From a virus: a stretch of 34,757 nt of DNA. The translations under genes were made by a program, and so were the position numbers. How positions within the stretch are numbered: position 1 is the first letter of the stretch; the number at the start of each line of letters is the position of its first letter. The notes under the pieces were generated by a model. It worked only from the letters and a program-made list of their open reading frames with translations. It was not told the origin of the DNA and did no database searches. The DNA lies in the IMG/VR virus record IMGVR_UViG_3300005519_000319, positions 1 through 34,757 of that record. One strand, given 5' to 3'. Shown piece by piece: positions 12,843 through 15,528 of this stretch.

Positions 12843-13110
12843 CCGCTCATCCATGACGGGAGCCCAAGCCATGACACGCGATACAAGGACGTGCTTCGGC
12901 GCGCCGGGGAGCATCGATGCCGCGAGGCTGTTCAAGCTGCCACTGCCGATGCAGGCGGAAGGCGTGCGGCTGCTGTTCGAGATGGGCCAGACGATGGAGC
13001 AGGTTACGGGTCGGCTGGGGCTTTCAGCTCGGCAGATACTCACCATGCTATCGCTTGAGGTCCGATTTGCGCGGATGGGCGAGCACCTAGTGTCCCCCGA
13101 GGGCAAATGA
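12832..13110 (+). CDS. Small early protein with sigma-like helix-turn-helix
   Basis: This protein of 92 residues starts at ATG 12832. The first 35 residues are polar. The second half (ARLFKLPLPMQAEGVRLLFEMGQTMEQVTGRLGLSARQILTML) contains a helix-turn-helix with the turn at GLSARQI, like the DNA-reading helices of sigma factor region 4 or resolvases. The function is not known. It overlaps the preceding gene by 11 bases and the methyltransferase by four (ATGA), so it is part of the same early transcript and may regulate the methyltransferase. Confidence 0.7.
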   Translation: MSNDRSSMTGAQAMTRDTRTCFGAPGSIDAARLFKLPLPMQAEGVRLLFEMGQTMEQVTGRLGLSARQILTMLSLEVRFARMGEHLVSPEGK

Positions 13111-14294
13111 GTGTGGTTATATCTCCCTCGCTCAACCTTATCTCCCTCTGCACAGGAGGCGGCGGGCTCGATCTCGGATTCGAGTTGGCAGTTCCGAGTG
13201 CTCGAACAATCTGCATGGTGGAGAGGGAAGCCTTCGCGGTCTCGCATTTGGTGGCAGCGATGGAAAAGGGTCTCCTACATCCGGCAGCTGTGTGGAGCGA
13301 TGCCAGAACCTTCAATGGCCGCGCATGGCGTGGTGCGGTTGACGGAGTCATTGGGGGCATTCCGTGCCAGCCGCACAGTCTCGCCGGACGCAAGCAAGGC
13401 AGTTTCGATACACGAGATCTCTGGAGCGACGCCCGACGCATCGTGGTCCAGGCACGCCCTTGGCTCGTCGTTATCGAGAACGTTGCCGGGATGCTCGCGG
13501 CGGGGGCTGACGAAATCGCTGGAGCCGAGAGGGTTTGGCGAGACCTTCGCAAGCTTGGTTTTTCGGTTGAGATTGGACTGTTCACTGCGGCGGAAGTTGG
13601 CGCGAGCCACGAGCGCGAGCGGGTCTTTATCCTCGGCATGGCCGACCATGAGAGCAAGTGCGGCTTCGATGCTGAGAGACCATGTGGACGATCCAAACGG
13701 CCGGCTGGAGGACGTGGTGGCGAATTGGCCGACGCCTGCAGCGCGAGACTACAAGGGGGCCAATGGATCGGACCATGTGACGAAAGGGTCTGGCCATCTG
13801 CACCAACTCCCGAATTTCGTGGAGCATCTTTGGTACACGCCCAACCCGCCGAACGGTGGCCGAACACTTCGGCCGGAGATTTCTCCCACCGGCATGACAC
13901 CGGACGGAACGAAGCGCCAAGTGGGCCTGGAGAACCAAGCACGCTCATGGCCGACACCGACATCGTTGAGCTTCGGCGAGAGCCATCAACCCGGAAATTC
14001 GAAATCGATGAACAAGACTCTGCGTTTGGCCTCTTCCCTCCCGGCCCCGCTGACGTCGAGACCTGGCAAGACATCATCGGACGGGCGCCGCATCTTGAAC
14101 CCGCTGTTTGTCGAATGGCTGATGGGTTGGCCGGCAAACTGGACACTGGTCGCGTGGATCGACTTCGCATGCTCGGCAACGGAGTTGTGCCTCTGGCGGC
14201 AGCGCATGCGATCCGCACTCTTTGCCATCGGCTTGCCCAGAGAGGCTCCGCCGGCGCAGCTAGCCTTGTTCGAATGATGAGCGCATCGGACTGA
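13107..14294 (+). CDS. DNA cytosine-5 methyltransferase
   Basis: This 395-residue enzyme would transfer a methyl group from S-adenosylmethionine to carbon 5 of cytosine, protecting phage DNA from host restriction. Motif I is SLCTGGGGLDLG (about 13-24), motif IV GGIPCQPHS with nucleophile C87, motif VI ENV (124-126), motif VIII SHERERVFILG (167-177), and motif X LRMLGNGVVPLAAAHAI (about 362-378). The region between motifs VIII and IX, which normally selects the target, is long (about 180-320) and holds recurrent MAD/LAD words. No restriction partner lies nearby, so it is an orphan methylase. The same DNA from 13648 on is also open in the +1 frame with a second protein-like pattern. The target sequence cannot be predicted. 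Confidence 0.93.
   Translation: MSVVISPSLNLISLCTGGGGLDLGFELAVPSARTICMVEREAFAVSHLVAAMEKGLLHPAAVWSDARTFNGRAWRGAVDGVIGGIPCQPHSLAGRKQGSFDTRDLWSDARRIVVQARPWLVVIENVAGMLAAGADEIAGAERVWRDLRKLGFSVEIGLFTAAEVGASHERERVFILGMADHESKCGFDAERPCGRSKRPAGGRGGELADACSARLQGGQWIGPCDERVWPSAPTPEFRGASLVHAQPAERWPNTSAGDFSHRHDTGRNEAPSGPGEPSTLMADTDIVELRREPSTRKFEIDEQDSAFGLFPPGPADVETWQDIIGRAPHLEPAVCRMADGLAGKLDTGRVDRLRMLGNGVVPLAAAHAIRTLCHRLAQRGSAGAASLVRMMSASD
13648..14277 (+). CDS. Overlapping +1-frame ORF with phage WPTP/LNPxFVEWLMGWP protein pattern
   Basis: Inside the methyltransferase gene the +1 frame encodes a 209-residue sequence from ATG 13648 (or ATG 13669). It contains NWPTPAARDYKGANGSDH, a second SWPTPTS, then ILNPLFVEWLMGWPANWT and a final WRQRMRSALFAIGLP ... 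LALFE. I recognise this WPTPxARDxKG ... LNPxFVEWLMGWPxxWT pattern from separate phage proteins often annotated near cytosine methylases, so it does not look random. No clear ribosome site precedes either ATG. The upstream part of the same frame (13111-13650) is not protein-like. It is either a true nested gene or a fossil frame retained after fusion; I keep it at moderate confidence. Confidence 0.45.
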   Translation: MRASAASMLRDHVDDPNGRLEDVVANWPTPAARDYKGANGSDHVTKGSGHLHQLPNFVEHLWYTPNPPNGGRTLRPEISPTGMTPDGTKRQVGLENQARSWPTPTSLSFGESHQPGNSKSMNKTLRLASSLPAPLTSRPGKTSSDGRRILNPLFVEWLMGWPANWTLVAWIDFACSATELCLWRQRMRSALFAIGLPREAPPAQLALFE

Positions 14295-14298
14295 GAAA

Positions 14299-15528
14299 AT
14301 GGACTTGGCTCTCGATCAATTCGTCGAAGACGCAAGGTCAGTGTCGATATCTGCAGCCGCAATGCAGCTCGGTCTCAGATTCACGCGCCACGGCTACGAG
14401 CATCCGCAACCTTGCCCCACCTGCGGCGGAATCGACACGTTCGCCTTCAATACGAGCAAGCAGAAATGGAACTGCCGCACCGGTGGTGCCGGCGGGAACG
14501 ATGCCATCGGCATGGCAGCGCATTGCTTCGGGCTCGATGTCCATCGACGGGACGGATTTCTTGAGGCCTGCTCGATCGTGCTCGCCCGGCCTGTGCCGCA
14601 CCACGCAGGGAGCAGCGCCGTAGGTACCGCGCTTCTGGAGCGGATTGAGCAGCGCCGACAGCGCAATCGAGCGGAAGCCGGCGCGAAAGCGGAGAGGCAG
14701 ACAGGCTTTCGCGAAAGAGAACGGGCGAAGGCGATTGCCATCTATGGCGCGGCTGCTCCTGTTGGCCGTTTTGGCCGACCGGTCGCAGACTATCTCGAGG
14801 CGCGCGGCTGCGGCCGCATCGGCGCGTCGCGCTGGCTGCGCTGTGTTTCCGCACTGCCTTACTGGCATGGCCAGGGTGATGACGGGCGGCCACGCGAACT
14901 GCATCGCGGACCGGCCATGGTCGCGCCCTTCGTCGGGCCGGACCTGCTCGCGATTGGCTGCCACATCACCTGGCTCGACCTGACGCGGCCGCCGAAATAC
15001 CGGCCGCGTCTGGTTGATCCGCTGACCGGTGATGTTCTGCCCACCAAGAAGATGCGCGGCTCGAAAAAGGGTGGGCTGGTCCCTCTGTTCGGCGAACCGC
15101 GCGCGTCGCGATGGGTCGGCGGCGAGGGCATCGAGAACAGCGCCGCCTTCGCGGCCTGGGAGGGCTGGCGCGCTGACACCTTCTATTTCGCCGCCGGCGA
15201 TCTCGGCAATCTCGCCGGCCCGGCCGAGGCCTCGTCGCGCTTCGCGCATCCGACCCTGCGCAAGCTCGACAGCAAGGGCGTCGCCCGCCCCATTATGGTG
15301 GCCGGGCCATTGCCGCAAGCCGACCGGGACCGCGACGACGCCATGTGGGTGGCGGGCCATGTCAGCGAACTGGTGCTGCTTGCCGACGGTGATTCCGAGC
15401 GCGTCATGACGGCCGCCGCCATGGCGCGCGCCCGGGCGAGGCATGCATGGGCGGGGCGCCTCATCCCGATCGTCTGGCCGCGCGCCGGCTACGACTTTGC
15501 CGGCATGGCTGCCGGGGCGAGGGCTTGA
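14299..15528 (+). CDS. P4-type DNA primase with zinc-binding and TOPRIM domains
   Basis: This 409-residue protein starts at ATG 14299, five bases after the methylase stop. Residues about 25-70 resemble the primase zinc domain: CPTCGG (C39, C42), then KWNCRTGGAGGNDAIGMAAH with C59. The usual fourth cysteine of the CRGCG form is replaced, so the zinc site may use a histidine (H31 or H35). The TOPRIM domain shows GGEGIENSAAF (catalytic glutamate) and VLLADGDSE (metal-binding aspartates) in the C-terminal third. It should make RNA primers for phage replication and work with the SF3 helicase encoded directly downstream (adjacent, no gap). Confidence 0.87.
   Translation: MDLALDQFVEDARSVSISAAAMQLGLRFTRHGYEHPQPCPTCGGIDTFAFNTSKQKWNCRTGGAGGNDAIGMAAHCFGLDVHRRDGFLEACSIVLARPVPHHAGSSAVGTALLERIEQRRQRNRAEAGAKAERQTGFRERERAKAIAIYGAAAPVGRFGRPVADYLEARGCGRIGASRWLRCVSALPYWHGQGDDGRPRELHRGPAMVAPFVGPDLLAIGCHITWLDLTRPPKYRPRLVDPLTGDVLPTKKMRGSKKGGLVPLFGEPRASRWVGGEGIENSAAFAAWEGWRADTFYFAAGDLGNLAGPAEASSRFAHPTLRKLDSKGVARPIMVAGPLPQADRDRDDAMWVAGHVSELVLLADGDSERVMTAAAMARARARHAWAGRLIPIVWPRAGYDFAGMAAGARA

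Follow-up and report, generated by a model that had tools for sequence, protein, structure and literature searches.

Two overlapping reading frames of a phage cytosine methyltransferase gene as the probable subunits of one enzyme

A cytosine methyltransferase gene of about 1.2 kb in the viral record IMGVR_UViG_3300005519_000319 carries two overlapping reading frames, and we consider it likely, with a probability of roughly 0.8, that the gene specifies a two-subunit C5-cytosine DNA methyltransferase whose chains are read from these two frames, begin at adjacent start codons and assemble in trans. Comparative data show, at the level of sequence, that each frame codes for protein and is preserved as an open frame, with protein-level selection mapped to parts of each. 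In the proposed enzyme, the alpha subunit (frame A) would provide the AdoMet-binding and catalytic part (motifs I–VIII), an unstructured stretch and motif X; the beta subunit (frame B, the +1 frame) would provide an N-terminal stretch, the target-recognition region (TRD), motif IX and a conserved tail; and the two would come together in trans in the usual fold to form the phage methyltransferase. The window, i.e. the whole 34,757-nucleotide stretch analysed here (1–34757; all features below lie on its plus strand), resembles a temperate tailed phage, with genes for an integrase, repressor, primase, terminase, portal and tape measure, and no restriction enzyme was found among the ORFs searched that flank the methyltransferase (ten window ORFs).

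Each frame is open across nearly the entire gene. Frame A (13107–14294) encodes 395 residues and is matched by Pfam PF00145 at E = 5e-27, over residues 10–181 only, and by PHROG family phrog_363. Frame B starts at a GTG at 13111, four bases 3' of the frame-A start, encodes 388 residues (13111–14277), is free of stops over 13111–14274 and matches phrog_27243, its nearest family and one annotated as of unknown function, as well as phrog_1008, which is labelled DNA methyltransferase. A preliminary description of this DNA had confined the overlap to the 3' half of the gene (13648–14277); the overlap stands, and its extent is nearly the whole gene. The catalytic region (13143–13640) lies in frame A, as judged from its motifs and from the variation discussed below, with motifs I (SLCTGGGGLDLG), IV (PCQ), VI (ENV) and VIII (RERVFILG) in the order that marks a C5-cytosine DNA methyltransferase. 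The TRD (13639–14094), with its WPT/WPTP repeats, is encoded instead by frame B, whose third codon positions vary there; frame A over the same bases resembles unstructured filler, so the earlier placement of the recognition region in the methylase frame does not hold. Motif IX (LNPLFVEWLMGWPANWT, 14095–14145) is likewise in frame B, as indicated by conservation in 71 sequences, in which L329 and F333–W340 are invariant, and by the order TRD-IX-X within the single frame of Rita gp76. Motif X (RLRMLGNGVVPLAAAHAI, 14160–14213) returns to frame A, with G357, N358, G359 and V360 invariant in 71 sequences, and is overlapped by the conserved C-terminal tail of frame B (FACSATELCLWRQRMRSAL...APPAQLALF, 14161–14274; consensus of 71 sequences). 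From MGWP in frame B (ending at 14133) to GN in frame A (14175), the gap is about 14 codons. We do not find the usual one-chain form of the C5-methyltransferases, in which a single chain carries the TRD and motif IX after motif VIII and before motif X: here both sit in frame B, and frame A is disordered and unconserved over that stretch.

Other elements of the preliminary description were borne out. The motif X string LRMLGNGVVPL is read in frame A and the motif IX string in frame B, as it had said, and the recurrent word TGGCCGAC occurs at 13639, 13726 and 13948 with no further copy within 13000–14400. In frame A these three copies read M-A-D, L-A-D and M-A-D; in frame B the first reads W-P-T-M and the other two W-P-T-P.

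Structure predictions for the two chains are of very different quality. The AlphaFold model of alpha has a pLDDT mostly of 85–98 at residues 11–180, falls to approximately 30–50 at 183–291 and is then ordered again; in other words, it is ordered at motifs I–VIII and X and disordered between them. In its catalytic domain (residues 8–180) the chain matches M.HaeIII and M.HhaI, and comparison with the PDB gives M.HaeIII (1dct) at E = 1e-13. The beta model is poor (pLDDT 57.8, pTM 0.23), and a search of the PDB with the beta sequence gave no match.

Selection on the two frames can be read from the phase in which related genes differ. For 18 independent pairs of related genes, we counted mismatches by frame-A codon position; over motifs I–VIII the rates at positions 1, 2 and 3 are.096,.050 and.195, the pattern of frame-A coding, and from motif VIII to motif IX they are.263,.101 and.099, the pattern of frame-B coding. 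From motif IX to the end the rates are.128,.050 and.116, i.e. both frames are constrained. The difference in phase between the catalytic and recognition regions is substantial (chi2 = 300, p = 4e-67). Stop codons were counted in 102 non-redundant loci and compared with the expectation from synonymous-codon shuffles of the other frame. The count for frame B over motifs I–VIII is 44, against 251 predicted by shuffles of frame A, and nearly all of the 44 are a single TGA just 5' of the frame-B start codon; for frame A over the recognition region it is 7, against 344 predicted by shuffles of frame B. No such depletion is seen in the third frame of the same genes (466 observed vs 533 expected, and 501 vs 463) or when 316 neighbouring genes are read in +1 (2513 vs 2484). 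With stops depleted in both frames, both are therefore apparently translated over almost their full length. Of the two readings offered in the preliminary description, true overlapping coding is the one supported. It had named normal synonymous rates in the methylase frame and a lack of stand-alone homologues of the +1-frame product as grounds for refutation, and neither applies: frame-A synonymous positions are suppressed over the recognition and IX–X regions, and homologues of frame B occur outside the nested layout in SheaKeira gp79, Rita gp76 and PFR1 Orf45.

How might two chains be started from one gene? The window has tandem start codons, ATGAGTGTG (13107–13115), with an ATG at 13107 (or a GTG at 13113) for frame A and the GTG at 13111 for frame B, so that GUGUG at 13111–13115 is itself an ambiguous start site of the AUGUG/GUGUG kind; a Shine–Dalgarno-like GAGGG at 13099–13103 is a candidate for serving both. 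Immediately downstream, frame B encodes W-L-Y-L-P (13114–13128), an instance of a family motif W-x-[YHFI]-[VILM]-P that follows a start codon and 0 or 1 residues in 87 of the 102 non-redundant loci. In all 87, the start codon is 3 or 6 bases 5' of the motif; the W and P never vary, and the other variation falls mostly at positions that are degenerate in frame B. ATGTG is present in 50 of these loci and GTGTG in 6 (56/87 in total), with frame B using the first start codon and frame A the second, and a Shine–Dalgarno-like word lies 3–14 nt 5' of the frame-B start in 71 of the 87. Synonymous constraint on frame A also peaks at the frame-B N-terminus, at a ratio of 2.20 to expectation compared with about 1.2–1.7 elsewhere over motifs I–VIII, values that are uncorrected for kinship. 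Because AUGUG/GUGUG sites and Shine–Dalgarno-like words recur at these starts, and because such sites have been shown to initiate both frames in Escherichia coli given suitable Shine–Dalgarno spacing (PMC9841429), we infer that dual initiation at adjacent start codons behind a single ribosome-binding site would be the simplest account of how both chains are made. In several distant relatives, the frame-B start lies inside the gene and not beside the frame-A start. The WLYLP peptide is conserved although the next ~165 codons of frame B mostly follow frame A; this early conservation is left unaccounted for by the dual-start model and counts against it.

Relatives of frame B were found in at least 270 places, comprising 72 bacterial genome loci and 201 viral contigs. 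We examined 160 loci: the 72 genome loci, the best 80 of the 201 viral contigs, a few phage records and the window itself. In 151, frame B lies at +1 with motif X encoded by frame A, and frame A is uninterrupted in 142 of these. Most of the bacterial genome loci belong to Alphaproteobacteria; Myxococcus, Chloroflexi and Acidobacteria are also represented, and a plasmid search returned three weak matches only. Profile searches recovered the +1 arrangement in Acidovorax Alfacinha1, in which the annotated gene is frame B, in Synechococcus Yong-M2-251, Microcystis Mae-JY24 and Mel-JY01, Paenibacillus Diva, C72C1, Acinetobacter ABMM1, Bacteroides BKO1-TP3 and ctjLE16, and in Salmonella epsilon15 and an E. 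coli EC20 prophage. The EC20 methyltransferase (NZ_CP084900.1, L161:1492-2661) appears in RefSeq as two partial pseudogenes; its frame A is uninterrupted, and its +1 frame, which includes the recognition region and motif IX, stays open over 343 codons. The arrangement appears to be conserved in many phages and prophages, and most annotations treat it as a single gene. The +1 position recurs in phages of Alpha-, Beta- and Gammaproteobacteria, Bacillota, Bacteroidota and Cyanobacteria, which disfavours a recent frame change as the origin of the TRD.

The layout does vary. Six loci (L031, L032, L036, L130, L133 and L134) carry several frame-A stops between motifs VIII and X with frame B intact, and a full-length alpha is therefore not universal; in this group, motif X is still conserved in a short frame-A ORF of its own. 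Motif X needs to be supplied another way in these cases, and the enzyme is possibly a three-piece one. Four actinophage loci (L182, L183, L185 and L186) have a PTP-repeat recognition region that is split otherwise between the +1 and methylase frames, with motifs IX and X both in the methylase frame. In mycobacteriophage SheaKeira, the frame-B homologue gp79 is a separate, partly overlapping gene that also carries motif X. In Rita gp76 and PFR1 Orf45, a single chain read in one frame runs through motifs I–VIII, the same recognition region, IX and X.

The interpretation of frame B as a beta subunit draws on several of these results: the phase of variation switches from A to B and variation is then suppressed in both at motifs IX–X; frame B supplies precisely the recognition region and motif IX that alpha is missing; Rita gp76 and PFR1 Orf45 unite the same parts in one chain; and, in the record of Paenibacillus phage Diva, this +1 frame is annotated as DIVA_50, a 'g49 internal gene'. 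Could frame B instead be a by-product that arises from biased codon use and a conserved frame A? G+C-rich DNA holds extra frames open longer, and over motifs I–VIII frame B does largely follow frame A. However, frame B is also open in relatives of 46–52% GC, and variation in the recognition region has the codon pattern of frame B. Moreover, against a profile of frame-B relatives from which the window was excluded, the window's frame B scores 206.9 bits, whereas 300 synonymous-codon shuffles of frame A average 31.4 and reach at most 71.9, i.e. shuffling abolishes the match; the shuffles carry 6.5 frame-B stops on average (minimum 2) over 13108–14291, where the real sequence has three, every one outside 13111–14274. 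We therefore regard a by-product as extremely improbable, and a chance or shadow reading of frame A is refuted by the phase of variation, the stop depletion with its neighbouring-gene control and the synonymous shuffles. A decayed gene was also considered and rejected for the window, in which both frames are intact and conserved.

Two further alternatives accept that frame B is translated. That it is no methyltransferase subunit and has a function of its own, for example in regulation or anti-restriction, would suit the unknown function of phrog_27243 and a beta model that resembles nothing confidently; we think this very unlikely given the match to phrog_1008, the fit between frame B and what frame A is missing, and the homologues of frame B that share a chain with motifs I–VIII and X in Rita gp76 and PFR1 Orf45. 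Programmed ribosomal frameshifting, in which translation starts in frame A and shifts by +1 after motif VIII to give a chimera of I–VIII and TRD-IX, is a better candidate, though still an improbable one. The parts selected as protein are colinear (I–VIII in A, TRD-IX in B, X in A), and the loci with frame-A stops between VIII and X would fit. Frameshifting alone, however, would not call for an open frame B over I–VIII or an open frame A across the recognition region, yet stops are far fewer than expected in each; a second frame used in this way would need to be open only 3' of the shift site, and frame B is kept open upstream too. Nor does it address the start codon and the conserved peptide with which frame B opens in 87/102 loci, and a second shift would still be required for the chimera to gain motif X. 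The same colinearity suggests descent from a one-chain C5-methyltransferase. The preliminary suggestion that the recognition region arose by frame change from a WPTP-type gene is better recast: the parts of a C5-methyltransferase keep their colinear order, and +1 is the frame in which its recognition region and motif IX are read.

If the two-subunit reading is right, many phage and prophage cytosine methyltransferases are annotated with one of their two subunits only, and a recoded construct of the annotated gene would yield an inactive enzyme; the same overlap is likely the reason that some such genes are called partial pseudogenes by automatic annotation. We lean slightly towards a broader proposal, namely that in a large class of phage C5-methyltransferases a single ambiguous start site gives rise to two overlapping proteins, both full-length, with one ribosome-binding site setting the subunit ratio and recognition regions changeable without disturbing the catalytic frame. 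Under that proposal, AUGUG-type dual initiation would be in widespread natural use, and the near full-length overlap of the two subunits of one enzyme would be unusual among bacterial viruses. These loci offer a natural system in which to test dual initiation at AUGUG/GUGUG and a large set of dual-coding genes for the study of overlapping selection. Two-polypeptide C5-methyltransferases and ambiguous start sites are already known; we found no prior description of this arrangement in phages in the open-licence full-text literature.

Among known systems, the closest parallel is M.EcoHK31I, whose small chain is read from another frame within the gene for the large one. This two-polypeptide C5-methyltransferase (YGGCCR) has motifs I–VIII and X in its larger chain and motif IX in its smaller chain, and its predicted recognition domain has been assigned to the larger chain (PMC3404938). 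By this published description, the window system would work like M.EcoHK31I: alpha, the large chain, holds I–VIII and X, and motif IX is found only in frame B, which would be the separate smaller chain. Unlike in M.EcoHK31I, selection on the recognition region follows frame B, and the two frames share nearly their entire length and start side by side; because the recognition region is in the other chain and the comparison is by description, we do not class the window system as a member. M.AquI (CYCGRG) similarly divides a catalytic part and a distal recognition part between two chains, but it has IX and X together on the smaller chain, whereas motif X of the window is in frame A; SheaKeira gp80/gp79 looks AquI-like. 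By analogy with these two enzymes, alpha and beta would be expected to assemble. The start region resembles the AUGUG/GUGUG sites and Thermus rnpA-rpmH, the sole earlier bacterial case known to the authors of that study, in having two starts in different frames a few bases apart behind one Shine–Dalgarno sequence (PMC9841429). The alternative frames in the E. coli cases are very short, whereas here both are of ~390 codons, conserved and apparently subunits of one enzyme. Diva DIVA_49/DIVA_50 likewise has the motif IX region in the +1 frame inside a cytosine methyltransferase gene; unlike in the window, its frame B starts inside the gene, ~180 bases after frame A, and the record assigns it no function.
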